NCBI GenBank assembly: GCA_012845835.1
Contig: JABAKD010000003.1
Coordinates: 2,045,984-2,109,983, forward strand
Source of the DNA: Undaria pinnatifida
Lineage: Eukaryota > Sar > Phaeophyceae > Laminariales > Alariaceae
Length of the DNA: 64,000 nt
Reading direction: 5' to 3'
A program made the position numbers and the translations under genes. The notes beneath the pieces were generated by a model. It saw only the letters and a list, made by a program, of their open reading frames with translations. It had not been told where the DNA came from and did no database searches. Below, piece after piece: positions 818-35,283 of the stretch (position 1 is its first letter; every line of letters begins with the position of its first letter).

Positions 818-1860
818 TTACCTAATTAGTGCTTCTGACACAAACTCAGCTCCCTCACCCCCTGCTCTTACATAAACCATAAATGACAGTGACTTCCATC
901 TACCTTCTCTTTGAATCTGAATATCTGATGCACCTTGGGCGGCTAGCTGAGTGGCCCTTCCGATCCTGCCACAGTGTAGCGCGTACTGGATCGGATCTCT
1001 ACCCAAACTACCTACCATCCGTCTCAACACCTTCGTTGCTATCGTGCACGTGGCCACCGTCCATCCGATGGCTGACTGAATCTGCATCAGAGGTGCTGAT
1101 CCATCCAACTCTGGATAAATGTCCAGAAGATCCAACAGAAATTCGAGCGCCCCGTTATTCTTCCCATCCCCAACCCCTTCATTTTCTATCACTACTCCGG
1201 TCCTTGTCACGATCGTTCCCAACCTTTTCCTGTCTGATTTCGACGCATGGAACGTCACTTCTACTCTGTCTGCGGTTCTGCTGTCCTCCCAGTGGAGTTG
1301 GAAAGCTCCGATAAAGAAAACCAAGTCCCTTTTAGTGAGGCAGAAGTCAGGGTGTACGAGTCCGTTGCCGTAGGGCCAAATTTCAGAGCTCGACACAAAA
1401 GAAGAAATGACAAAGCAAGTCCGCGCCAGATTACCGATCCCTACCGTCCTACCTCGATGACCCTATCCATCCCTCTTGTTAACATTCTCCACGTGAGTGG
1501 CATCCTAACCCGGGGGGGTACGTCAGACTTTCCGTGCGCTCTATCGATTTCTTTTCTTACCGCAAGCACCATACAGTGGAACGTAGGCAACTTCCACCCC
1601 GCAAACATATTGTGGGAATACTTAATCGCGGCTAAATATCCTCGGATCGTTTGACTTTGGTTTTTGGACGCGAAGCATCGCAAGGCCATGAAATTTGTCA
1701 GCGCTTTTGCTGCTGCGTCTACCCTACCCTTTTCTGCCAACCAAGGACTCTGCCTTCTATCGCTCTCATACGACACCAGGTCTGCCATTTCGACCTGTAC
1801 AACAGGTATATATTTTTCGTTGACTTTTCGTCTGTTTTATGATCATGGGTTTCGTTTGGC
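818..1860 (-). pseudogene. DIRS-like tyrosine recombinase, frameshifted remnant
   Basis: Two minus-strand reading frames, 1788-1441 and 1396-818, join into one tyrosine recombinase once a frameshift near 1430 is allowed. The upstream part resembles the N-terminal SAM-like DNA-binding domain. The downstream part has the catalytic fold: an HxxR box (His-Cys-Gly-Arg), a GRWKS segment and the nucleophile Tyr in FMVYVRA. The first catalytic Arg, expected just before the SEIW segment, is Ser here (SSSEIW). DIRS-type retrotransposons use such an enzyme to integrate a circular cDNA. RT and RNase H pieces of the same type and strand lie upstream at 7751-6380, so this is probably the 3' gene of that element. 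The frameshift plus the lost Arg indicate an inactive copy. Crypton is the main alternative, less likely given the nearby DIRS-type RT. Confidence 0.75.
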
Positions 1861-2668: not shown

Positions 2669-5186
2669 TCACTGTGTGTCAACGAACCCAGGCTCCATGT
2701 CGATAATGTTGCGGTGAGAGTTGCAAGTCTTGCGCTTTTTCTCGATGCTGTCTTTCGACTCAATGCCGTCTGCGTCTTTCTCCAGCTTCAAGCACGCGCG
2801 ACAGTAGTCACGCGTGCGATGCGCGAAGCGACGCACCTGCGACAGCGTCAGGATCTTTTCCCGGCACATGGATGCGAAGACGTTCCGGTGCATGTTTCTC
2901 GAAACCTCATATTTGAGCTCCCGCCGAAATTTGAGTTTCGACATCCCCCAGGAGTACTCGATTTTCCCACGCCGGCCACCTCCAGATGATTCTTGGGCGA
3001 CATCACCAGGACGCGCCCGCGTTTCTCTACCGTGTGCTGTAGCGCTGTGCGCTCATTCTTGAAGTCCGGAAGACTACCCAGAACGTGGTCGATGTTCATC
3101 TTCGGGTCCTTGGCGGCTGTCGACATCCAGTCGACATACCACCCGCACTCCCACAGCACCTGCTTGCTCCCCCTCGCCTTTCCCACATATCCTCTCTTCT
3201 TGCCGATCTTGCCGCGCCTCCTCATCACCTTGTCTTCCGCGGGTGCCTCCCAATCATAGAAGGGAGGGGGATCGTTGGGACCGAAAGACACGCGCTGGAC
3301 ATCACCCACCTTCAGCTTCAAATTCACTGTCTCCGTGGTGAGCACGGCATCGAATTTCGAGCTCCAATCCTCGTCATTGGGGTGCATCTTCGCCCTCCTT
3401 GGACTCAAAGATCCCTCTATAATCACGTGATCACGAAGAGCCTTCTGCTTCCCTCCGTACTTCACGTTCATGTTTTGGACGTGCAGCCCATCCGGCAGGT
3501 ACTTCGTGTGCCGTGCCGAGTGATCAACCTCGATCGCCAGCTGTTTCCCTGGCTCAATCTCCTCGAGGCAGTCCATGATGTCGATCGTTTGCTGCACGAA
3601 ATCTGCAAAACTCCAGTAACCTTTCCAACCCAGGGGTCTCTTCCAAGGGCGTTCGGCCCTGTAGTTGCCGCCTTTCGTTCACTCGTGCGAGCTCGTCCGC
3701 TGCGAGAGGAAAACCAAAGTCACGATTCTCATCCTGAAACGCAGACACCATCTTCCCTGGGCCCTCCGACTTTTTTCTCAGCCCACGTACACCCCTGATC
3801 ACCCACTCCGTACCCTCGCGAGAGTATACCTTGTACACGCTTTCGTCCTGCCTGATGTGGTGCAATGACTCACCGCACCTGTATACGTCGGGCGCATGGA
3901 AATGTTCGCAAGGAGCTTCCGAAGCCATTTTTAAGCGAACACTGTAGCATTCCCTCGCCGCCCCAAGTCCCTGCCGTAGAGCATTGTATCGCTCGTCGGA
4001 CCCGACCCCGAGGAAGTCGACGTGAAATTCGACGTACTCCTTGCCGCCCCTCTCGTAGATATACGTTTCAGCTGAAAACGCCTCTGGGCCGGTCTCTCGT
4101 CGATCATGGAAGGCGTCTTGTTCTTCCTCAGTCAGGGATGACCACCCCGCCCGCACTCAGCATGGTTTACGAAGCGCCAGTTTCGCTGCGTGCGAAGGCA
4201 CTCCTTGCGGGCCGCTTCGGTATCCGGCCGCTCATGACCGTCAGTATAATATGATTGTTTCGCCCTGTCATGCTTACATCCGAGCTTGCGCATCCAGACG
4301 TTGATTGTAGTCGTGGATATGGGAAGGCTGAGTCCATGCTCGACCGCCTTTAGGTTCCCTTCTCCCCGCACAAGCAGTTGTTCGTTCATGAACTTGTGCG
4401 TGTTCTTCGTGGTGACTCGTTTTTGGGCCTTCAGTCAACCGAGCAACTCCATCGAGAGATCTTACTTTGCTCATAATCCACCCTCTCTCGCGCATCTCTC
4501 TATAATCTCGCTTAAAATAGCCGCCAAGCTGCTAAAACTGACGCGTCGAGGAGAAGATCGTCGACGGGGTGTATCTCCTGTCCATCTTCTCCTAAATATC
4601 TTCAGTAAGCAGCAGAAGAGAGTAGGTGAGACGAGCGACACGTCGTCCAGGGCTTTCTTCGCAACTTTTTTGGCGGCCTCGCCGACCCTCAAAAAGCGCC
4701 GCAAAGGCGATCCTGATATTCTCATCGATTAGCAGATCCCGCAGGCGTACTTCTTCGAGTAGGTCCACGACCACCATGGTTTGAGCGACGAGCTGTGTCA
4801 ACTGTGCGGCAGATACCTTCGTGTCCTGTGCTTCGTTTTCCACTGGCCCACATGCCGTAGCCCCATCACCCACGGAGCCGCTTTCGGTCTTGTCGTCAAA
4901 AACAACTGTTTGATTCCCCCATCATACAGCTCCGAAGCCGGCGGATGTGCCCTTCGTCCCTCTGCGCTTGCTCTTGCACTTCTACCGCGCGGCGCTCGAG
5001 GTACGAGTGCCGGTTTTTGAATTTCTTCTTCACCCTTGCCTCGCGCCTGGTCCAAGCCAGAGTGAGACACCGCTTCTCTTGCTCCGTCAGAATTGTAGAC
5101 TTCATCCAGTCCGAGCGCAACAGGCTGCCTCCTTCATTGCGTTGTTTCTTGAACTGACGCTCCTGTACTGCGTTCAACCTGGCCAT
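2669..5186 (-). pseudogene. DDE transposase of the YxDGHExxD family, multiply frameshifted
   Basis: Consecutive minus-strand frames (5186-4896, 4873-4592, 4389-4132, 4156-3554, 3597-2848, 2944-2669) read as one protein if several small frameshifts are allowed. In order they show a charged coiled-coil-like N-terminus, a helix-turn-helix-like segment (about 4389-4270), a YYTDGHERPD box, a first catalytic Asp in QDES (codon 3845-3847), a second Asp in EVDHS (codon 3523-3525), and a third acidic residue in EYSWG near 2965. The DGHE box and the later SPKxHxE...EYxWG block resemble a transposase family found mainly in fungi and protists, distantly IS630/Tc1-like; that comparison is from memory. About two extra A bases near 2970-2977 shift the frame just before the EYSWG box. 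Frames also break near 3590 and 4905. No terminal repeats or target duplication were found. Confidence 0.7.
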
Positions 5187-13756: not shown

Positions 13757-14197
13757 TGTTGCGGCGGATTGACATGACGTCACATGAAATCCCGTGGCGG
13801 AATGCTTCCTAGGTCTGTATAACGCCGATCAGTCTAGAAAGCGTGCTGCTCACGGCCTCAGTCCAAAAACACACAAAACCAAACGAGGGAAAAAGGAACC
13901 TGAACTTGATCTGACACGAGTGTGAGTGACTGCGAACCGAGCTTGAGTACAGCTATCGTTACCGTGAGGCATTGTTGGAAGTTTCGTCCGGAGATCTGTT
14001 ATATTGTACGAGCTCTTGGAAGAGGACTGCGTGGTACGAGACTGGTGTTTGCAGGCAGCTGTTGCAACAAGCAGACGGGAGGGATCAGCCTGAAGGTAGA
14101 CACGGAGGAAACGAACTTGAAGCGGTGAGAGAGTTGGGACAAGGGATTGGAGACTTGGGTACGTGTGACTAAAATAGCTCTTTATCCGTTCGTTACA
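13757..14197 (+). repeat. 5' LTR
   Basis: The 441-base terminal repeat matches 23558-23998 except for A versus G at 13782/23583 and T versus C at 14007/23808, both transitions. It presumably holds the promoter and the polyadenylation signal of the element, but I could not place either with confidence. Confidence 0.95.
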
Positions 14198-14215
14198 TGG
14201 GGCTTCAGCTGGGAT
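14198..14215 (+). promoter_or_regulatory. Candidate primer-binding site
   Basis: The sequence immediately after the 5' LTR starts TGGGGCTTCAG. A TGG directly following the LTR is expected for a site complementary to the CCA end of a tRNA primer. I cannot name the tRNA. Confidence 0.5.
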
Positions 14216-16660
14216 CCGTGTGGGTTGATAGTCTCGCTTGACGCAGGTAGAAGTACGGTCGTAAATGCGCAGGTAGAAGTGCAGCTGCATGCCAAGCCAA
14301 TTTTGGTTGAAATAATGTATATAATTTAGCATGGGAAAAAAGGAGTAGTCTAAAATTGAATGAATTTTACAGGATGTTGAAGAAAATTCCATGGCAGTTC
14401 AACTCTATATTATCATGTTGAAAATCTCGCTTGTGCAGCAAAATTTCGCTTGAAGCAGCATCGCGAACCCCACACGCTGCAGGATAATCACAGGCAGACA
14501 CCGCAGAAATAGAAGCAGCAGCAATACAGCAGGCCGCATGAGTGATGAGAATCGGTGGTCGTGATCTCTAGATAGTCGAGGCGAGGAATGAGACGCTTGA
14601 TAGTTCAGACATGATGAGGAGTCACGCGGTCCATGCTACGCACAGCAGTACATGCAGAGAGCAAACGAGATTCTCCCCGCTTTGACTGACACACTATTTT
14701 TTTTGTATGCGCTGCAGCAGACGAAACGTTGGTACGTATGCATCAATGGTATAAATTGTTCCGCAAAGCATGCATTTTTTCTGCTTTCGTGCTCGTACTT
14801 ACTCTTACGACGAGTATTTCTGCATTCTTGTACCAGGTATGTATGTCATCGTGCTGTATACATGCGTATCATATGTTCTGTATGTCGTTTGTGATATGCT
14901 CTTGTTTTTTTCTGCTGCACCATTTTTGACGCCAAACTGACCGGGTATACCTGCCTGAAAAAATATTTTTCGTTTGTTTGGGTACACCCGTACGTACTCA
15001 ATCGATAACGGATGCATACAGCAAGCGATGGTACAATGCGATCTCACAACTGGAGTGTATTTTAATTTTGACAATAATATCCGTAAACCAAATGTTTCAC
15101 ATTTTGAACTGGAAAAGACATACATGCTTCCCTGCCTGCTAGTAAGCCTTGCCTAAATGCAAGTTGGGGGGGTATTTATGTAGGCAGGATGGTGAGAAGG
15201 GAGTAGTAACATGAACTGTTGAGCCAGTAACATAATATAGTAGTAGTAAAAATATTATACATCATTTGCTCATACATATACCTACTACTACTGCTGTATA
15301 GACTATATGGTCAAAACAATGTACATTTGTGAGTATCGAGTATTATATGTATACGTTATTATTGGGGTTACTTGTTTGTTGCACTTTTTTGTAGTCTATA
15401 GCACGAGAAATCGATTGGTCTGGAGGATTAGCAATTGCTGTACGGAAGAATAGTACATACACACTGTACAGGTTGGTCTTGTTTATTGTACCTTGTATAG
15501 AACAGTACACAAGTTGGTATTTATACTACGCGAAATCGTAATCTACGGGCTGGGTTATTTTGGAAAAATATAGCAAGGGCTGACTAAGTTGTATAAAATG
15601 TAAGAAGTAGATTAAATAATACGAGACCAATAGGACATCGGGAAAGGATTATCATCAGTGCCGATGACGAGTAAGTTCATACGTGATAAGTCACTGTAGG
15701 GATGTGCTTGCGTTCATCATACGGGTTGAAAATGAGTTCGGGTCTGTTAGTTGATCTACACTTGTTGCATACTGTGAGACGACCGTAAGGCAAGGGTTTT
15801 TTTGCAGGCAATTTGTTTTTGGCCTTTGTGATGGGGATTTTGCGTCTTCGCAGGTTGTATAGGCACTGCAAGGTCGTTCTCACAGGTGTTTCAAGAGTAG
15901 TGATACTGCATACTGGTTCTGGTTTTTAATTTTGTATGGGGAATGTAAGCCTTTCTATAGCTGCTCTTTGTCATGCTAAGAACTTACCGGAATTGGAAAC
16001 ATGGTTTAGGAACATTATCATATTGGAATGGGAAGGGGGGAAGCTCGGTAAGTACGTTGGAATTTTGGGGATTGTAAATAATGCATCAATAGGGGGAATC
16101 TTGATAAGTACGTTGGAATTTTGAGGTTTGTAAATAATACATTAATATCAATCAGTGTTGTGTCTTAGATGCCTAAGGGATTCCATACCTTACTCTGTTA
16201 GTAAAGACTCGAGCTTTTGAAGGGCGGCATTTCCGAAGGATTACGTGTATATTATCATAAGGGGACAACTTTCAACAAACCAGAAAGGTAAATATGCATG
16301 TACTCGAAACCTTTCACCACCCCTCTTTCCCACCCACCTTGTCCCAAGCCACTGTTTATACCCGTTTAGTGCGGACAACTTGGTGTTACTAGACTCCATC
16401 GATCCCCTGGACTCCATTCGTCTCCCTAGACTGCATCGTTGGATATCATCTTCACCTTATACGACGCAGCTTCGTCGAGTACATCGTGTACCACGCAGCC
16501 TCATCGAGTCCGTCGCATACTGCACAGCTCCTACTGCACAGCTCCATTCGTCGGATACAACACAGCGTCGTCGAGTCCGTCGTGTCATCTTACTCTACAC
16601 GACAGCAAAGCGAGAGGTTTCGTCAAAGGGAAACGGGCGGCGTCCCGGGGAGGGGGGGGG
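14216..16660. other. Retrotransposon 5' internal region without recognisable gag
   Basis: About 2.4 kb between the primer-binding site and the first long frame contains no convincing coding sequence. A capsid-type gag would be expected here. The region may be a long leader, a decayed gag, or a later insertion; parts at 15140-16200 are AT-rich. Short CG-rich repeats (GTCGAGTCCGTCGT-like) occur at about 16390-16590. Confidence 0.5.
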
Positions 16661-16666
16661 GAGTGA

Positions 16667-17341
16667 TTGGAGGAAATAACATGGCAGGGAGAGGGGGACC
16701 TTTTTGGGGACCTTTTGGTGCACCCTACCCGAGGGGACGGGGGGGGAGGAGTGATTGGAGGAAATAACATGGCAGGAAGAGGGGGATCTTTTTGGGGACC
16801 TTTTGGTATACCTTACCCGAGGGGAGGCCCACCACAGGGTGGCCCGCCACAGACCGGCCAGGCTGGAGGCTCACCACAGGGCGGCCAGGTTGGATGGGGC
16901 CCACAGGGCGGTGCAGGACGAGGGGCAGCAAGACCGGCAAATCCTGTAGGAGCGGGACGCGGGTACAATCAGATGTCCCCTCCCTCCCTACCGTCACCCT
17001 TCGGAATCGGAGGACGATGGGGTCCACAGGCAGCCCCAAGAGGAGCACCACCGAACCCTATATCGCGAGGAGGACCTCCGATAGCGCCACCGATGCCGCC
17101 AAGGCCGCCGCAGCAACAACAGCCAGGGTATGCTAGCCAACAACCACCGAACCCTATATCGCGAGGAGGACCTCCGATGGCGCCACCGATGCCGCCAAGG
17201 CCGTCGCAGCAACAACAGCCAGGGTACGCTAGCCAACAACAGCAAGGGTTCGCTGGCCAACAACAGCCAGGGTTTGCTGGCCAACAACAGCCAGGGTTTG
17301 CTGGTCAACAACAGCCAGGGTTCGCTGGCCAACAGCAGTGA
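16667..17341 (+). pseudogene. Gag-like Gly/Pro/Gln-rich low-complexity ORF
   Basis: The 224-residue product is rich in Gly, Pro and Gln. It begins inside an 88-base direct repeat (16664 and 16752). It then has GGPPQGG repeats, two copies of a roughly 100-base block containing NPISRGGPP and APPMPPRP, and a run of QQQPGFAG octapeptides to the stop at 17339. There is no visible capsid domain and no CCHC zinc knuckle. It sits where the C-terminal part of Gag would be and overlaps the protease frame. It may be the disordered nucleocapsid portion of a Gag whose N-terminal part is lost or unrecognised. Whether it is translated is unknown. Confidence 0.5.
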
Positions 17342-17429
17342 GGGTTCACTGGTCAACAGCAGCCAAAGTTCAGAGAGTTCCGCTCACCGATCGGGAATGG
17401 GAGCACTGCAAACTAAGACGTCACAGGTT

Positions 17430-17800
17430 TGGGTTCATGCAACGTTGTGGCATGCAACGAGCTCGAGCCGGCGACTTCCGATAGCGGTGCTGGTGGATAC
17501 TGAGGCGGTTGGAGGAAACTACGTGTCACGGCAGTTCATCGAACCCATTGAAGAACGTGATGGTTGCGGAAAGTCGCTGATAAATCCAACGGGAGACGGC
17601 CTACTCCGCACAGCAAACCCAAAGAACAGCGCCATACCCGCGATGGAAGTGGTAGGCTCGTGCTTGCTACCACTAGTCTTTGCACCGGTCGACCAAATCT
17701 TCCGCGTGAAGTTCAGGGTGGTGAAAGGACTTCCGTATGCGATGGTGCTTGGAGCCGCGTGCATGAAGGACAATCGAAGCATCCTCAGCTTCGATGGGGA
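17430..17800 (+). other. Aspartic protease domain, active site altered
   Basis: A retropepsin-like segment contains VLVDTEAVGG (Asp-Thr-Glu at 17496-17504), where the family has Asp-Thr/Ser-Gly, followed about 70 residues later by a VLGAACMK block resembling the usual ILG flap-side motif. The Gly to Glu change at the active site should abolish activity. The domain follows directly on the Gln-rich region and precedes RT by about 230 residues. Confidence 0.65.
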
Positions 17801-18479
17801 GGAGGGTTTCCGGCCGACACCATCCTCAGCGTGGGTACCATTCGCCTCGAAGGAGGTCGGAGAGGCCGCGGCAGGGGCGATGTATGCCGAATGGGAACAC
17901 TATTGCGCGGTGAAGCCGTCAACGGACGAGCTAGAACCGGACGAAATGGCGGGACCGAAGATCCCGGCGGGGATTATGGAGTTAGGAAACTCTGTTTGGG
18001 AGGACGAAGGCACTCTGCACTGGAAACTACGCATTGCGAAAAACATAGAGGTTCCAGGTGGTACCAGTATCCAGGTAGACGCTTTTGTCAAAGGCCCTCA
18101 TCCTCAAGTGCAGCAGCTCGTAGTGGTAGAGCAAACTAACCGCTATGATCTTAAACTAGGAGTGGATCTAGGAGTGCCAAGGGGGGCATAGTGGTGGTTT
18201 CCAGGTATACCACTTCAATGTAAGTTGTCGAATGTTACCCAGGATAATGTGAAGATCCAGGGGGGGCTGGTGATTGCGACGGTTTACGCTGTTAACAATT
18301 TCGATCGGGAACGCATGAAGTCACTCATGAACCCGGTGTCGGAGAAACCGACACGCCCCAAACAGGACGAGGGGATCAAAAGGAAAGACAAGAGGAGACC
18401 ACCGGAGCAATGCAACAAAGGGGGTGAAATCGCAGAGATTCCGAACGAAGCCCCCAAGGTGGACCTGAGAGAGGCCAAC

Positions 18480-19460
18480 TTCGGACAGCTCAGTCCGAAC
18501 GAAAATGACACATTGATGGGCATTCTCAACGAGTACATCGATGTGTTCGCGGTCAACCCCAAGAGCGTACCAGCGTGCAAAGGAGTGCCCATGCGACTGG
18601 AGTTCAAATATCCCAACGTCAAGCCATACGTAGCGCCCATTCGACACTACAGCCCGGAACAGCGCGAGATGATTCAAACTGAGGTGGTGAAACTCTTGAA
18701 GAATGGATCCATTCGGGAATCAACTTCCGAGTGGGCCGCCAATTGTTCGACGGTTCGCAAGAAAGATGGGACAGTGCGGGTTGTACAGGATTTTCGAGGT
18801 ATCAATACCCTTCTCAAATCACAGAGTGGTGGACTCGGAGACTTGCAGCATATTATGGATGAGATGGAAGGGTCGAAGCATTTCTCTAGCATCGATTTAG
18901 CTTCAGGATTCTTACAGCTCGAGATCCATGAGGATGATCGATACCTGACAGCATTTCGAGACGCTGACGGAAAGCTGTACGAATACGTTCGCTGCGGCTT
19001 CGGGTTGAAGACAGTGCCTTCGGCGTTTGCCAACTACGTTGGAGGGCGACTGTTAACCGTCAAGGATAGGGGAATCAAGAATTGGTTGGACGACATCGCC
19101 ATCCCGTCGAAAACCCTTGAAGGTCAGTGGGTACTGCTTCGAGAAACGTTAGAGTGTCTAAGGCAAGGACTTTTAACCGTAAATCTTCAGAAATCGCATT
19201 TCTGTCAGTCGGTCATGGAGTTCGTCGGCATGATCGTGGATAGACTTGGTACCAGGCCAGCCCCGAGCAAGATCGATGCTATCACGCAGCTGTCCAGGCC
19301 GAACACGGTGGAGGAAGTGCGAGTGTTGCTGGGAATGACAGGATATTTACGACAGTTCGTACCCCAGTATAGCACGGTGGTGGCGCCCATTTCCGACTTG
19401 CTGAGAGATCCAAGGTTCAGAACCAAGAGAGCGAAGAAAGAGAAAGTCCCATGGGGAGAA
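18480..19460 (+). other. Ty3/gypsy reverse transcriptase domain
   Basis: The domain copies element RNA into cDNA. Visible motifs are VRVVQDFRGIN, the first catalytic Asp in SSIDLASGF (codon 18894-18896), the RCGFGLK block with a following PSAF segment, and the double Asp in WLDD (19083-19094, the YxDD equivalent). The connection segment has LLGMTGYLRQFVPQYS. All catalytic acids are present, so this domain is intact apart from the flanking stops. Confidence 0.9.
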
Positions 19461-19469
19461 GAGCAGAAC

Positions 19470-19925
19470 AAAGCTTTTGATGCGCTTATCGAAGCTTTGA
19501 CGTCACCTCCAATCCTAGCCCTGCCGGTGTGGACAGAACCGTTCTCGCTGTCCACCGATGCCAGTGAGATAGGAGCAGGAGCGGTGCTAACATAATGCAT
19601 TGAAGGAGTGGAAAAGGTGATCGCGTATGGCAGCAAAAGGTGGTCGAGAGGAGACTCCAAAAGGTCAGCAACGGACCGTGAATGCATGGCGGTCATGTGG
19701 GCAGTAAACAAATTCCAACCCTATCTTTGGGGACGACCGTTCACGCTCATCACGGACGGTTCGGCGTTGACTTGGCTCTTCAAAAGCCAATCTCTCACAC
19801 CAAAATACCACCGCTGGGCTCTGAGGTTGATGGAGCACGACATAACCTTGAAGTGGAGGCCGGGGACACAACATCAGCTCCCAGACGCCATGTCGCGGTT
19901 ACCGAACAAGAGCGTCGTGATCGAA
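19470..19925 (+). other. RNase H domain, split by a nonsense codon
   Basis: RNase H removes the RNA strand after reverse transcription. The acidic residues are visible in STDASEIG, in RECMAVMWAV and in LITDGSAL, and the domain ends at LPDAMSRLP as usual for Ty3/gypsy. A TAA at 19593-19595 falls between the first and second acidic residues; a Gln codon one transition away (CAA) would restore the expected reading. Confidence 0.85.
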
Positions 19926-20930
19926 AATTTCGACGACTCTTTTCCAGGAGACGAGTCGTTGCCAAACGTTTACAAAGGGCCACAGGGGCCAGTGCTCGAC
20001 GGTGTACACCTCGAAACCTTAGGAGTAGAAGATGTGGACGGGTCTAGTACTCAAAGTCTTACAGTACTTGCAGCCGTCGCACTCACACCCACAGACCCAT
20101 CAGAGGCAGATATTCAACAGGCCAAGCTTGTCGTTGCACCGGAGCTTCCAGTGGTGGTCATGCTCGACTGTGGGGGGGGAGGCAGCATCCTTGCATCAGA
20201 AGGGTTGCTGACGGTCAGGGAAGCAGTAGACCAGGACTGGAGAGCACTGGAACGCGTCAGAGCAAACGGACTGGACAAAGGTGCGAAGCTTCTTAGGGTG
20301 ACAACAGGGTCTCCGGAATGCCTAACCATGTTGAGAGAGGTGAAACCAGACGTAGTGGTCGGTGACGCCTGCAGGAGGTTTGAAGGGATACGAGAGAAGG
20401 AGGGAATATCCGGAGCGAGTAGCCTAGCCCAAGCTGTCATCGCTTCAGACGCACGAGTTTTCATACTCGAATGTGATTCCGTGGAGGAGGAAACGGACGT
20501 TCGTGGTAGGAATCAAGGGAGGCCTTGCCACAAAAAGGAAGTTAGCCGTTTGGAAGCGGAGGTTGGAGAAGGTATAGCAACCAGTTCAGGAATTAGGGGA
20601 ATTTCTGGGACGAAGAAGCGCATACTTCTTGAAAAGAGGTAACGGAGAGCGAACGATTTACTCGTTCAACGAACCCATCATCTCTTCTTTGAACCGTGCT
20701 CACATCATGGGGGAAAAGCCAACCGAAAGGTATATCGCACACCCAGCGGATGCGGCACGCCTTGAAGAAGCCGAAGAGTTGCACTTCAACGACTACGCCA
20801 AAATCACCACAGGGCAAGAGCACTACGTGGTCCCGCAAACGGTTAGCCAAAGCCCAGCAGCAAACGTCATCGCAGATTTCACGTCTCCTCCAATGCTACG
20901 AGCAGTATTAGTTGAACTAGCTGTTCAAGG
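19926..20930 (+). other. C5-cytosine DNA methyltransferase-like domain inside pol
   Basis: Between RNase H and the pre-integrase linker the frame shows C5-MTase motifs in the right order. Motif I-like MLDCGGGGS is at 20160-20186, with a following DQDWRALERVRAN (motif II). Motif IV-like VVVGDACRRF keeps the catalytic-position Cys (codon 20370-20372) but has Ala and Arg where Pro and Gln are expected. Motif VI-like FILECDSV has Glu at 20469-20471. Motif VIII-like RRKRTFVVGIKGG (20485-20523) is in the next frame. Motif IX-like ADAARLEEAEEL and motif X-like AANVIADFTSPPMLRAV end the domain near 20905. Such enzymes methylate cytosine C5. A frameshift (20471-20490) and a TAG (20575) break this copy, and the altered PCQ box may also have weakened it. 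A different Rossmann-fold methyltransferase is the main alternative. Confidence 0.65.
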
Positions 20931-21456
20931 CTTACTGGGAAAACCGGTACCAGAGGTGGCGGAACTAGAAGGGTTGGCCTGCATGGTGTTTGAAGATTAC
21001 CTCGCAGCATCGAAAGCCTTTGAGGTGACAATAGCGGTCACGAGATCGCAGGCAAAGGCCACTTCCCAGGAACCGGAGGTTGTCTGGGAGGCAGAACCGC
21101 CGTTACCTGAGGAGGAGGAGATGGAGAATGCAAAGGCGCAGACGGTCACTACTACTGAACTACCAGTGGAAGTTGATCGCCCACGCAAACGCAGGGGTCA
21201 GAGAGAGCCCATCCCGAGACCGAAACGGCAACGTGATCCGTTGGAAGAATCACCAAAGGACACCAGCAACCGTATAAGCGGATCAGGGAAAGAGGCCAAG
21301 GGGTCCCAGCGGTCAGAGCCATCCATGTTGGAAAGGGTGACAGCTATTCTCCAGGATTTGCCACAGCTGATGCAGAGACAGTGCGAAGATATGGTACTTG
21401 GCAAGATTCGGAAAGAACTCCAGGAAGCGGGAAACCGAGGATCAGGAGGTGGCGAA
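20931..21456 (+). other. Charged linker between MTase and integrase
   Basis: After the methyltransferase-like domain come an AVTRSQAKA segment, an acidic stretch (LPEEEEMENA), a basic stretch with KRRGQREPIPRPKRQR that could act as a nuclear localisation signal, and an amphipathic helix-like end. The AVTRSQ segment is the usual start of the linker that directly follows RNase H in related elements, which marks where the extra domain was inserted. TAA at 21457-21459 separates it from integrase in the same frame. Confidence 0.55.
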
Positions 21457-21459
21457 TAA

Positions 21460-22650
21460 GTGATGGATGATAACGGCCTCTTGTGGATGGCACCTCGGGG
21501 AAAGATCCCACGACTTGCAGTTCCCCGATCTCTCGTTTCAGGGATTATGGCGCTGGCGCACAGCACCTATGGGCATCCGGGGACGGCACGAACTACAGCC
21601 TTGATTAGTCATCGGTACTGCTGGCCCACCCTCATTAAGGACGTTAGAGACTACGTCCTCTCGTGTGGGTGCAGACGACGCAAGCGGTCAGCGAGTCAAC
21701 GGGTTGCCATGCTACCGTCGAGGTTTCTACGACCCGGAGAAGTACTCGAAGTCGACATCCAGGACATGGGGGTGAAGTCGGACGCAGGCAACAAAGTTCT
21801 ACTGGTAGCAGTTGACAAAGCCAGCAAGTTCTTGTTCGCCTTTCCACTCCCTACGAAAGAAGCAATCGGAGTAGCGAGGAAACTGCTCGAAGTGATGCTT
21901 ACTTTTGGACTACCGCTGTATGTTCGCAGTGATCCGGGATCCGAGTTCACGGCAGAGGTGATGCAACACTTATGTAAGTGGTTGAACGTGACCATCGCCT
22001 ATGGGCCTGCCGATCATCCACGTGCACAGGGGACGGTGGAGAGATTGGGGGGGTGGCTACACGAACCACTAGGAGAACTGTGCAAGACCTGGCCTCGCAG
22101 ATGGGACGAATACGTACAACCGACACTGTGGATCCATCGTACCACGCCGGACCTGCGCCTGCCGGGGAAGCCAACTCCCTTCCGTCTGTTCTTCGGTCGT
22201 GATGCACGCACGCAACTTGATGCTACGCACCCTGAGATAGATGGTGGTGATTTCAGAGGCGGGATGCACAGTTACGTGGCCGACAAACGTCAAGCGTACA
22301 AGGAGGTACGGGATGTACGGATAGCTCTATCGAAAAGACATGAAGACAGGCAGAAAAGTCGTGAAAGTCGGAATGCTGAAATCGGTCGGACCTCGGTAGG
22401 CACCCGTGTTGTTGTCGGAGATAAGGTGCTGGTGAAGGAGGCGGAGTCTGTGATGGTAAGGGAAGGGATACATCATAAACTAGCCCACGAGCACTGGACC
22501 GGACCTTGGGAGGTGACTGAAGTTGTCTTACCAGGACTCAGCTACATCGTCACGATGAATGGGCGAGGGATTCGCCGACGACGGGCGTCAGCATCGAATA
22601 TCAATATGTTCCACTTACGTCCGGACGACCTCCGTCACGACTTCGAAAAC
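21460..22650 (+). other. Integrase: zinc-binding and DDE core domains
   Basis: The integrase inserts cDNA into the host genome. The N-terminal zinc-binding region has HSTYGH (His-x4-His), followed by a YVLSCGCRRRK block with Cys-x-Cys spacing rather than the usual Cys-x2-Cys. The core has the catalytic Asp in EVDIQDMG (codon 21754-21756), Asp in RSDPGSEF (21931-21933) and Glu in GTVERLGG (22039-22041). The last two are separated by exactly 35 residues, the canonical D-35-E spacing. A WTGPWEV segment typical of the Ty3/gypsy GPY/F module follows near 22500. No stop interrupts this part. Confidence 0.9.
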
Positions 22651-22689
22651 GAATTTGCTCACCTGGCATGGGGAGTTGACTTCGGACTG

Positions 22690-23172
22690 GCGGAGCCGTC
22701 GACTGTAGCGTCGCCTATGTATACCCTAATAGACAGAAAGGCTGTGATGGGTCAAGGCAACGCTTGGAAGTGGCGATACAAGGGACGATTCGTGGATGGC
22801 ACAGAGTCGCAGTGGCTGTCCGAAGAGGAGGCACGAGACAGCTTCACCCCTTTACAGCTGGACGTTTTCCATGCGCTGTGGGAAACGTATCACGGAGCGG
22901 AGTGCCGGGCAAGACCAACTTCGACGCTAACGCGGAAGGAAAGAGATGGGATCGACCGCGAACAAGCGTTGAAACAACACCCCGTGGGGACCGTAATCTG
23001 GAGGGAATTCGCGGACGCTGAAGGAAACAAGAAGCGTCACCTTTCAAAAGTCTTCGACTACAAGTCACCGTACTGGCGCGTTCGGTACGCAGACGGAGAT
23101 TGGAAGGAGCTCAACGAACGTGAAATCCTGAAAGGTAGGATGACCGGAAATTCGCAATCCGGTTCCCCGTAA
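22690..23172 (+). other. Integrase tail: chromodomain-like then Tudor-like module
   Basis: At about 22716-22870 the segment YTLIDRKAV ... WKWRYKGRF ... ESQWLSEEEA resembles a chromodomain (the VKWKGY and WEP blocks). Chromodomains of such integrases bind histone marks and steer insertion. A second module at about 22985-23130, GTVIWREF ... VFDYKSPYWRVRYADGDW, resembles Tudor-like barrels with a YxDGDxE end. Two consecutive putative chromatin readers are unusual. The Tudor assignment is by pattern only. Confidence 0.55.
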
Positions 23173-23523
23173 ACGTGGAACGTAAAGTGGAGGCGGATGG
23201 AGAAAGGGAGAAAACGTTGGCCGGAGATCGACCAGCGAGGAGGATCAAGGCCTCGGCCTACCCGGGTTATTGGGAAAGCCGGGAAGTGGTGGATGAGAGG
23301 CTTTCAGCTGGTGCGCTTGATGAGAAATACTAGCAAGTCCAGCAGTACCGATCTGGGACCTAATGGGAAAAAAAAAAGCGCGAGGCCCAGGGTCCCTACC
23401 CCCTGAGAGACGCCTATCCATGAAAATGTTAGACGCCACTCATTCGAGCCTTAGGGTAATCGAAACACGACTAAGTGTGGGAAAAGGCCCTCACTCTTAC
23501 TCCAGTGTATCCGCAGCCCGGTT
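23173..23523 (+). other. 3' internal region with a small basic ORF
   Basis: A 69-residue frame at 23197-23406 encodes a basic, Gly/Arg/Lys-rich peptide with no recognised family. It lies between the end of pol and the 3' LTR, where some elements keep an extra gene, but there is no signal peptide or membrane segment, so it is not an envelope gene. It may be chance. Confidence 0.3.
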
Positions 23524-23557
23524 AGCACGGCATTCCTGAGAAGCCGTGCTGGGGGGG
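23524..23557 (+). promoter_or_regulatory. Hairpin and G-run at the polypurine-tract position
   Basis: AGCACGGC (23524-23531) and GCCGTGCT (23543-23550) form a perfect 8-base stem with an 11-base loop, followed by seven G residues that end exactly at the 3' LTR. The G-run is the plausible plus-strand primer. A hairpin directly before such a tract is unusual. Confidence 0.55.
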
Positions 23558-23998
23558 TGTTGCGGCGGATTGACATGACGTCGCATGAAATCCCGTGGCG
23601 GAATGCTTCCTAGGTCTGTATAACGCCGATCAGTCTAGAAAGCGTGCTGCTCACGGCCTCAGTCCAAAAACACACAAAACCAAACGAGGGAAAAAGGAAC
23701 CTGAACTTGATCTGACACGAGTGTGAGTGACTGCGAACCGAGCTTGAGTACAGCTATCGTTACCGTGAGGCATTGTTGGAAGTTTCGTCCGGAGATCTGT
23801 TATATTGCACGAGCTCTTGGAAGAGGACTGCGTGGTACGAGACTGGTGTTTGCAGGCAGCTGTTGCAACAAGCAGACGGGAGGGATCAGCCTGAAGGTAG
23901 ACACGGAGGAAACGAACTTGAAGCGGTGAGAGAGTTGGGACAAGGGATTGGAGACTTGGGTACGTGTGACTAAAATAGCTCTTTATCCGTTCGTTACA
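23558..23998 (+). repeat. 3' LTR
   Basis: 441 bases, matching the 5' LTR at all but two positions. It is followed by the target duplication GTCT. Confidence 0.95.
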
Positions 23999-24035: not shown

Positions 24036-25425
24036 TTACTTATTATATGACTGTATTATTACTGTTACGGCTTTACTCGGCACGGGATTTGCGTCACACT
24101 GCTGTATGCTGTGGACAGTGGAGCACCAGAGAGTGTGTAGTGTTATTGGTTATATAATGTGATATCACACATTGGCGTAGCATTCAGAACACGATCAGGA
24201 TTTATTGGCCACTTTTGTATTTATTTTGTTTTTAAGGAAACTTTTTGTTTCAATATGGCACCACCGCCGTGGGGGCGGGGGTGTCGATCACTCCCTATTT
24301 GAAGAGTATGTTGTCTTACACATGCATATATACAATCCCTCAGGCTTTTGTTGGGTAAGGCCACGTAATTGCATGCAACACTGAAATAATTGAGAAAACG
24401 GAAGTACTTCGTAAATCCAATCATTGGTTGCGTACTGCAGTCAATCCATTAGGTTGCTCCTCAGGTTTACATTGTATCATCCAACGCCGCACGATGCAGA
24501 CTCGTTAGTACGGAACCAGATTATTCTGGCGATGTATTCCATAGTCCACAAGATGTTACAATAGGTGATACCCACTAGGGCACGCGGATAGTTGATCTTG
24601 GTGGTGATTGACTGTTGAGGATATGATGTGGTATGTGAACGTTATCTAGATCTGAAGACAACTACTGTAGTAGGGGTTTCTACTTATCCTCTTCTGGATT
24701 CTGATATAGGGATTCGGGGATGAAGTTAGGATCGCTTGTTTTCCTGTGTTCGGAGCTAATACAACAACTTCTCTCTCCTTTCCTAGCACTTAAATGGTGC
24801 CGACCAGCCCCCCTCAGGCCAAGGGGGGATTCTTTCTGGTCAGAAGACCTTGCCTAGCCTAGGCGTGTCTACAACGCCTTGGTACGAGTAGCTAGGAGTA
24901 CTGCCTGGTGATTGTTCTACACGCTGTGGTGACATATATATATATGTTCGGGGCATCGGCACGAAAGAGGCAGGAAGCGGTAAGTTTTGTGTTATTTGCG
25001 GATCCGCGGGCCCGACCTGCGGGGCGCCTGCACGGCAATGGCTCTCAGCTATGCGTTTGAAAAAGGTGGATCCGCATGCTAGATCCGCGGTTTTGACCCG
25101 CGGGTCAGCCGAAAACAACTCGCGGGTCATGATGGCTTGACCCGCGAGTGACCCGTATCTCGCGGATCATGACCCGACCCGACCCGCGAGATTTCGAAAA
25201 CATTTTGACCCGACCTGACCCGACCCGCGAGATTTTGAAGCCTCTTGACCCGATACAAGCCGACCCGCAAAATTTTGAGGGTTATTGACCCGACCCGACC
25301 TGACCCGCGAGATTTTGAAACCTCTTGACCCGATCCGACCCGACCCGTGAGATTTTAAAACGTAATGACCCGACCCGACCCGAACCGTGAGATTTTAAAC
25401 CCCCCTCGACCCGTGAAAAGCCCCG
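24036..25425 (+). repeat. Decayed relative of the hAT element at 33536-35283
   Basis: Segments here match the second half of the 33536-35283 element in the same order. Shared landmarks are GTCACACTGC near 24090, GGTACTGCCTGGTGATTGTTCT-like sequence near 24900, the CGGCACGA..AGGCAGGAAGC block, GGATCCGC blocks, and then an array of about 30-base units GACCCGACCCG...CGAGATTTTGAAA from about 25050. The right end reads GTGAAAAGCCCCG, one base off the intact terminus. The left terminus is not recognisable. An imperfect hairpin with C6/G6 and GACCAG/CTGGTC stems lies at about 24803-24840. Confidence 0.65.
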
Positions 25426-25920
25426 ATAAATATTTGGGGGCACATACTTGCTGCCGATGAAATCCGGATAGGTGAAGATCGCATAAAAGCTATAGTCGAC
25501 TTGCCAACACCTAAAACCATCAGGCAGCTGCGGCCAGTACTAGGCATGCTGAACTTTGTACGCAAGTTCATACCCAACTTAGCCGTAACCATAGCACCCC
25601 TAGTAGCCCTCATGGAAAAAGGCCATTAAATAAGTTGCTCATCGTTGGGGTCTAGAATACGATCTAGTGTACGCAACAGTGAAACAATCACTCACCCTGG
25701 CGCCCGCGCTACAATTGCCTGGGTTTTCTAAAGATTTTGCGATACATCTTAAAGCACCCGAAGCGGGCGCGGAGGCATTTCTCGTCCAGCAGAAACGTGA
25801 CGACCTTGTAATCATCGCAAACGTTTGTCAACGGTTCAACGATAGCCAACGCCACTACTCTGTTATGCAAAATTAATGTTGCGCGGTTGTCCAAGCTATA
25901 TAACACTGGCGATCCTATTT
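25426..25920 (+). pseudogene. Ty3/gypsy RT-RNase H fragment, frameshifted
   Basis: The sequence begins in the RT connection region. A YLG..LAADE block can be read if one extra G in a GGGGG run (about 25435) is ignored. It is followed by LPTPKTIRQL and LGMLNFVRKFIPN, then a stop and frame change near 25628, and RNase H-like YATVKQSLT ... SKDFAIH ... QRFNDSQRHYS to about 25876. It is a different gypsy lineage from the full element. It starts directly at the end of the hAT-like repeat, which suggests that repeat inserted into this retrotransposon. Confidence 0.75.
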
Positions 25921-33535: not shown

Positions 33536-35283
33536 CAGGGCTTTTCACGGGTCGGGTCAAATCTCGCGGGTCGGGTCGGGTCGGGTCGGGTCAGCTGACC
33601 CGACCCGACCCGCGAGATTTTTGAGACGTCTTGACCCGACCCGACCCGACCCGCGAGATTTTCGAGACGTCTTGACCCGACCCGACCCGACCCGCGAGAT
33701 TTTCGAGACGTCATGACCCGACCCGACCCGACCCGCGAGATTTTGAAATCGTCCTGACACGACCCGACCCGACCCGCGACAATCCGAGTGACCCGCGAGA
33801 TTCGGGTCGTCTGGCGGGTCACGTTAACTTGACCCGTGACATTTCTCACGGGTCAAGGTCAAAAAGTCACGGGTCAAAGCATGTATACCTCGGTCGGTTG
33901 GTTGGTCCTTGGTCCCTCGTACTTTTCCCAGTATGTCGTGTTCTCTGCGTTTTTTACCGGCATTGTTTGCAGCTGATGATTATACCATGTGGTGTGCGCG
34001 CGAGAAATAGGAAAGAAACCGCAACCCACATGCATGGACATGCCCGTACCGTTAGACCACCAGGTCGACCCGACGAGCGACCCGACGAGCGAGCTAGTTA
34101 TAAAACTTGTTTACAAGTGCAATCTCCGGCCCCGGCAAGCAGCCTAGCTGAGCCGCCTCCGGCAGCAAGCCCACAATTGGGGCAGTGGACCTGCCAGCAG
34201 GGGCTGCGATCCGCGAGGATGCGTTGTCTGCTGCTGGTGCTTGCTGCTGCCAGGGTGCTGCTGCTGCTGTGCTGCTGCTGCTGCTGCTGCTGCTTGCTGC
34301 TGCTGCTGCTGCTGCTGCTGCTTGCTGCTGCTGCTGCTTCGACAACGGCTGCTCTTAAAGACTTCTTGCTTTTTTACGTTTGGTCACATTTCGTACTGGT
34401 ATGATAATTCTCGAGCTAGCTACTACTACTACTACTGCTGTATCTATCTTCTATCTGTGCAATCTCCAGCCCCGGCAAGCAGCCTAGCTAAGCCGCCTCC
34501 GGCAGCAAGCCCACAACTGGGGCGGTGGGTCTGTCAGCAGGGGCTGCGATCCACGAGAATCCGGCGTCTGCTGCTGCTGGTGCTTGCTGCTGCCAGTGCT
34601 GCTGCTGCTGCTTCGACGACGACTGTCCTTCCTTGCCTTTTTACGTTTGTTTGGTGACATTTCGTACTGGTATGACCGTGATATTACTGCTGTTTGTTGT
34701 TGTTGCGGCTTCAGTAGGAACGGGATTCCCGTCACACTGCCGTATGCCTTGATACGAGTAGCGAGGGGTACTGCCTGGTGATTGTTCTGCACGCTGTGAT
34801 GACATATGATCGGAGCATCGGCACGAGGAAGGCAGGAAGCCGAAAAAATGTTTGCATTTTATTGGCGGACCCGCGGGCCTGACCCGCGGGACGCCTGCAC
34901 GGCATCAACGTGGCTCTCAGCTGTAAGTTTGAAAAAGGCGGATCCGCCGGCTAGATCCGCGGGTTTGACCCGCGGGTCAGCCCAAAACAACTCACGGGTC
35001 ATTATGGCTTGACCCGCGAAGTGACCCGTATCTCGCGGGTCATGACCCGACCCGACCCGCGAGATTTTGAAAACCTCTTGACCCGACCCGACCGGACCCG
35101 CGAGATTTTGAAGCCTTTTGACCCGACCCGACCCGACCCGCGAGATTTTGAAAACGTCTTGACCCGACCCGACCCGACCCGTGAGATTTTAAAACGTAAT
35201 GACCCGACCCGACCCGACCCGCGAGATTTTGAAACCCCCTTGACCCGACCCGCGGGTCGGGTCATGACCCGTGAAAAGCCCTG
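33536..35283. mobile_element. Non-autonomous hAT-type element, 1748 bp
   Basis: The ends are perfect 18-base inverted repeats (CAGGGCTTTTCACGGGTC and its complement). The element is flanked by an 8-base direct duplication GAAATAAC (33528-33535 and 35284-35291). CAGGG-type termini plus an 8-bp duplication are the hallmarks of hAT transposons. No transposase is present. Both subterminal regions are arrays of about 30-base units GACCCGACCCG...CGAGATTTT, with an inverted junction near 33597. The middle holds a duplicated block of about 340-base period (34118 and 34459) and CTG microsatellites at about 34256-34345. Perfect termini and duplication indicate recent mobility driven by a transposase encoded elsewhere. 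Confidence 0.88.

Follow-up and report, generated by a model that had tools for sequence, protein, structure and literature searches.

Does a retrotransposon of Undaria pinnatifida carry its own DNA-marking enzyme, and could that enzyme still work? The question is raised by a 64,000-base stretch of contig JABAKD010000003.1 (the window), which contains a Ty3/gypsy element (13757-23998; 10,242 bases) bounded by long terminal repeats (LTRs). A preliminary description of the sequence had placed a domain resembling cytosine-C5 DNA methyltransferases (C5-MTases) between the RNase H and the integrase of this element, and had proposed that the element carries its own writer of methylation. Sequence comparisons support the first of these proposals: the segment is an extra domain descended from C5-MTases, located between RNase H and integrase of the Ty3/gypsy Pol and also present in sibling copies. 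With regard to the second, we consider it probable that the captured enzyme has lost its activity, or that this activity is strongly impaired, the copy in the window being broken.

Descent of the domain from C5-MTases

The family was assembled by protein searches at E values up to 10, which yielded 19 relatives and then 83 (80 of them from ENA). The 19 relatives share 72-92% identity with P0001 across the aligned region. P0009, P0013, P0014, P0016 and P0019 link RNase H to the domain, and P0010, P0011, P0018 and P0020 link the end of the domain or the linker to the start of the integrase. From these overlapping fragments, since no single record covers the whole Pol, we infer one Pol frame in the order reverse transcriptase (RT), RNase H, methyltransferase and integrase. 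The last residues of P0011 resemble what we take to be an adapter artefact of short-read assembly, so that sibling ends are presumably not all real. A more distant relative, P0066 (source code lgn, 62% identity), marks another lineage of the family.

The best siblings can be recognized individually. P0003, which retains a stretch absent from the window copy, matches PF00145 with an E value of 1.5e-4 and 21.8 bits, the curated cut-off being 22, and P0004 does so weakly (E 0.0082). The NCBIfam dcm model gives E values of 0.0023 for P0003 and 0.11 for P0004, and in alignment A3 six of the 11 sequences have a PF00145 match with an E value of 10 or less. A sibling profile of 11 sequences, two whole and nine trimmed, scored 46.3 (E 1.1e-5) against 13 phage and Escherichia coli C5-MTases, the L042-type reference of the window copy, which has stops, having been left out of that alignment; 20 column shuffles did not exceed 21.7, and reversing the profile gave 15.5. 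Against 25 C5-MTases, chosen from 101 reference enzymes for this profile and for a hidden Markov model (HMM), the same sibling profile aligned over residues 7-294, covering motifs I-X, with a probability of 97.2%, an E value of 4.5e-11 and a score of 82.5; 100 shuffles scored at most 29.9 and the reversed profile 13.2. The HMM gave 35.5 bits to P0003 and 0.4 bits to the best of 168 decoys, and had an E value below 0.02 in 22 of the 84 fetched siblings, many others being short pieces.

Open searches point in the same direction. When P0003 was compared by tblastn with 72,556 plasmids, 50 records matched at E up to 10; among the best 20 of these 50, 19 carry an annotation as cytosine methyltransferase (one of them HindV) and one lacks annotation. 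Because 19 of the 20 repeat the same alignment, they amount to two independent matches (E 2e-3 and 7e-3). Phage sequences gave 43 records, and the best 10 of the 43, at E values of 1 to 5, include two annotated DNA methylases. Motifs I, II, IV, VI, VIII, IX and X are collinear in the siblings. A predicted fold model, built with C5-MTase relatives, matches solved C5-methyltransferases and displays a Rossmann-type methyltransferase fold (alignment A7 served for a second fold; the 50 VIA-align rows include one, 8i9v, that is not a DNA C5-MTase). When 17 siblings were folded by themselves, the predicted local distance difference test score was 35, and that model was not used.

The window copy would not have revealed this descent by itself. 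Searched alone, it has no match to PF00145 at E up to 10, an outcome that the preliminary description had named in advance as speaking against its claim, and no C5-MTase was found for it in the PDB. On the HMM, its best reading obtains 8.4 bits and the reading across two frames 5.1, against 2.1 for the top-scoring of 200 shuffles. A non-chance resemblance is thus established by the sibling family and is not shown by the window sequence alone. C5-MTases were likewise not found in the PDB with P0001; of the sibling profiles compared with the PDB by sequence, one gave RT/RNase H and a weak unrelated match, and another gave nothing. The sibling loci were not found in viral_contigs or genome_contigs.

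Active-site motifs and conservation in the family

In M.HhaI-type enzymes the motifs for catalysis and cofactor are PCQ, ENV, QxRxR and GNxV. The preliminary description had recommended looking for PCQ and ENV in intact siblings; in the siblings compared here the family reads ACR and ECL. Residues were counted in the siblings aligned to P0003, with P0003 included. In motif IV, where PCQ is expected, Ala is present in 28 of 29 sequences, Cys in 24 of 29 (the others having Arg in three cases, Trp in one and Gly in one) and Arg in 28 of 29; a PCQ motif around the catalytic Cys is therefore lacking, Pro being absent and Gln replaced by Arg. The alignment with five prokaryotic relatives, in which VGDA-CRRF lies opposite VGCAPCQPF, suggests that the Pro has been lost. 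Motif VI has E-C-L in place of ENV (Glu 21/25, Cys 20/24, Leu 18/24). Both arginines of motif VIII are present (R149 and R151, each in 22 of 23), with Trp replacing Gln. Motif X reads ADFT where enzymes have GNxV, with Ala in 31, Asp in 30, Phe in 28 and Thr in 35 of 35 sequences. P0066 has DAGRR at motif IV (Cys changed to Gly) and EGV at motif VI. By pattern, PC occurs in 100 of the 101 reference enzymes and ENV also in 100 of 101. Since the motif changes are common to the siblings, they are a property of the family, beyond this broken copy alone.

The conservation of the pieces of the domain was assessed by protein identities only, comparing those of the window with siblings that are mostly decaying copies, and is hence a weak test of constraint. 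Identity is 82.9% for the N-terminal half and 84.2% for the spacer that precedes it (same 20 siblings, the N-half being higher in eight); 89.5% for RNase H and 83.7% for the N-half (same six siblings, the N-half being lower in five); and 86.8% for the C-terminal half and 80.4% for the linker that follows it (same 21 siblings, the C-half being higher in 15), the linker mean being lowered by one sibling, P0006, at 35%. Pooled values are 91.2% for RT (four siblings), 81.7% for the N-half (40) and 82.4% for the integrase (five). The catalytic half therefore shows no extra conservation over the spacer, and the integrase shows none either. Nor is the open frame an argument for function, because the integrase lies downstream.

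For CpG, the observed/expected ratio amounts to 0.97 over the window, 0.93 over the element and 0.84 over the domain. These ratios give no sign of lasting CpG methylation. A 2026 survey gives DNMT2 as the only DNA methyltransferase in brown algae (PMC13076208), DNMT1 is mentioned for early-branching brown algae (PMC12344493), and a kelp methylome describes about 1.4% of cytosines as methylated, with only DNMT2-like genes (PMC6916402).

The window copy, its element and its surroundings

The domain extends over approximately 20151-20949 of the window, and all the features of the element described here are on the forward strand. All the motif strings quoted in the preliminary description were located, in the order given there. 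The N-terminal part (20151-20474, assigned by homology to the sibling profile and alignment A7) is in frame 0 and contains motif I (LDCGGGGS, 20163-20186), motif II (DQDWRAL, 20229-20249), motif IV (VVVGDACRRF, 20352-20381) and motif VI (FILEC, 20460-20474). The C-terminal part (20485-20949; the sibling profile aligns up to residue 294) is in frame 1 and contains motif VIII (RRKRTFVVGIKGG, 20485-20523), a IX-like motif (HPADAARLEEAEEL, from 20740, feature span 20740-20805) and a X-like motif (NVIADFTSPPMLRAV, 20863-20907). The canonical motif order thus holds collinearly for the siblings, whereas in the window copy it is split over two frames. At the junction (20475-20484), 10 bases separate positions 20474 and 20485 where P0003 has 39 codons (109-147), which leaves about 107 bases missing; FILEC is confirmed as motif VI, whereas the D that had been read after it is a junction residue at the deletion. 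Stops are found at 18189, 19593 (TAA), 20575 (TAG, within the C-terminal part) and 21457 (TAA). The siblings read through the last three, and the sibling records seen do not reach 18189. The window copy is broken and therefore cannot make the domain.

The element has the LTRs, and the RT-RNase H ahead of integrase in Pol, that are typical of Ty3/gypsy LTR retrotransposons; in Pfam searches the order between the LTRs is RT, RNase H, the segment in question and integrase. The 5' LTR (13757-14197) and the 3' LTR (23558-23998, preceded by a run of G) are 441 bases long, start with TG, end with CA, differ at two of 441 positions (99.5% identity) and have GTCT on their outer flanks. This near identity accompanies a coding part with four stops and a deletion, a combination that could be explained by trans mobilisation of a defective lineage, by gene conversion or by errors in the assembly. 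The leader between the 5' LTR and the first coding part (14198-16600), delimited by composition, is unusually long and has a GC content of 0.42. At 17487-17510, the string VLVDTEAV resembles by eye a retropepsin site with DTE replacing DTG, in an open reading frame (ORF) without a Pfam match.

RT and the first part of RNase H occupy 18192-19592 (PF00078, E 4.2e-16; PF17919, E 7e-12), up to the TAA at 19593, and the remaining RNase H occupies 19596-19910 (PF17917, E 3.1e-21), ending in LPDAMSRLPNK (LPDAMSRLP at 19878-19904). The spacer between RNase H and the domain (19911-20150) lacks a Pfam match and is present in P0001, P0004, P0009, P0013, P0014, P0016 and P0019. The linker (20950-21456), with AVTRSQ at 21034-21051, precedes the integrase; P0010, P0011, P0018 and P0020 continue from this linker into the start of the integrase. 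Window anatomy and the joining sibling records together place the domain inside Pol. The integrase ORF (21460-23169; PF17921, E 1e-13; PF00665, E 3.4e-10) has a weak Tudor-like match in its C-terminal tail (22993-23128; PF21743, E 0.0039, 17.4 bits, below the cut-off of 27.2).

Within the window, tblastn of the element pieces did not find a second copy of the domain. An RT-like fragment at 25480-25614 is 36% identical to the RT of the element over 45 residues. Related repeats are present at 24876-25413, 33538-33779 and 34746-35252, and tandem-like arrays at about 26.5-27.9 kb and at about 30.0-30.9 kb. Eight other ORFs of the window have no Pfam match above the cut-off. By eye, the end of the ORF at 818-1462 (reverse strand; no Pfam match above the cut-off) is tyrosine-recombinase-like, and two overlapping ORFs at 2848-4156 (reverse strand; no Pfam match) are DDE-transposase-like. 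Searches of the window for tRNA genes and Rfam families gave no matches.

Explanations, related systems and meaning

The explanation that we regard as probable is that a Ty3/gypsy family took in a C5-MTase, which it carries within Pol between RNase H and integrase. The ancestral domain may have accompanied the machinery for reverse transcription and integration, methylating the newly made DNA of the element itself, as proposed for other retrotransposon DNA methyltransferases (DNMTs). In the present family this activity would be lost or strongly impaired, and the frame would stay open largely through the integrase lying downstream. Several observations weigh against this explanation. Where motif IV falls varies with the alignment, the larger alignment A5 putting it elsewhere; the motif IV Cys, the motif VI Glu and the Arg pair of motif VIII are mostly retained, which a dead enzyme need not do; and the 101 reference enzymes are redundant, 81 being close relatives with one common motif. 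Pfam matches are confined to the best siblings, with none to PF00145 for P0001, P0005, P0010 and P0016, and the alignment of the fold model included C5-MTases. Moreover, the integrase, which must function, is conserved no better than the catalytic half, and since it is equally low, the weak conservation may reflect decaying copies. That the segment is a mere spacer with chance motif resemblance is very improbable. The window copy and P0001, taken alone, and the sibling profiles in the PDB would agree with it, but the Pfam, NCBIfam, profile-profile, open tblastn and fold results of the siblings, with their controls, do not, and at the family level chance resemblance is rejected by the profile comparisons and shuffles.

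Two further explanations accept the descent of the domain and differ on what it does today. Master copies might still produce a functional C5-MTase that has unusual motifs and methylates the DNA of the element, inactivity being limited to dead copies like the one in the window; the retained residues just mentioned would agree with such a writer, and de novo methylation of CG is an activity of other retrotransposon DNMTs (PMC5890265). We consider this quite unlikely, in view of the missing Pro and replaced Gln of PCQ, the changes of ENV to ECL and of GNxV to ADFT, and a CpG content that is not depleted; the element with a working writer that had been envisaged is thus disfavoured by a broken copy and by off-consensus motifs IV, VI and X across the siblings. 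It is unlikely, too, that catalysis was given up and the domain retained to bind DNA, RNA or a cofactor in the integration complex. The C-half, above the linker in 15 of 21 siblings, and the occurrence of the domain across siblings of at least two lineages are in favour of such a role, but the linker mean is dragged down by P0006, identities among decaying copies test constraint weakly, and the N-half is not above the spacer.

Retrotransposons bearing DNMTs are already known; what is new is another Gypsy family, whose domain narrowly misses the Pfam cut-off and whose siblings share a modified active site. Because the best sibling falls just below that cut-off, surveys relying on PF00145 could miss the domain. 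KnitGypsy-Dnmt3 of the charophyte Klebsormidium nitens is similar in having a C5-MTase domain in the Pol frame of a Gypsy LTR retrotransposon with many copies (de Mendoza et al. 2018, PMC5890265). However, its domain is a Dnmt3, with conserved key residues and Ka/Ks below 0.2, whereas the family described here, characterized by protein identities only, has motifs off consensus and is placed only as C5-MTase-derived. SymbioLINE-Dnmt and SymbioDIRS-Dnmt3 of dinoflagellates are also retrotransposons with C5-MTases, but they belong to the LINE and DIRS types, and their key residues are conserved; the element described here is a Ty3/gypsy with LTRs and integrase (PMC5890265). The closest enzymes in the plasmid search, among the best 20 of 50 records, are those of a Rhizobium sp. 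WSM4643 plasmid (29.6% over 2-185, E 2e-3) and of HindV type (24.6% over 9-232, E 7e-3 to 2e-2); both types are free-standing, and the Rhizobium-type relatives read CAPCQ and MENV where the family has DA-CRR and LECL.

With respect to other domains, Gypsy-10_Ec32 of Ectocarpus carries a Tudor-like domain at the Pol C-terminus, comparable by description only to the sub-threshold match found here; its lineage is given for Ectocarpus and Tribonema, and the accessible text reports no methyltransferase domain for it (PMC12477816). The likeness of the tail to this lineage makes an ochrophyte host no more than plausible. Orchid Ty3/Gypsy elements have likewise fixed an extra nucleic-acid-modifying domain, but it is an unrelated enzyme, an m6A RNA demethylase (PMC9289625). 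Open-access titles and abstracts among the matches listed report no C5-MTase-derived domain for Gypsy elements of brown algae or other stramenopiles.

A broader scenario, which we put forward tentatively as possible, is that the domain outlived methylation: the algal lineage would have dropped its own DNA methyltransferases, while one such enzyme persisted in the Pol of the Gypsy family. With its active site altered, it would serve the integration complex as a module that binds nucleic acids and either does not methylate or acts in a different way. If the host is a brown alga, the element would carry a C5-MTase relic on mobile DNA in a clade where DNA methylation is scarce or missing. The family would then offer a test of what becomes of a DNA-marking enzyme in retrotransposons, which may keep, change or drop it, after their host abandons the mark.
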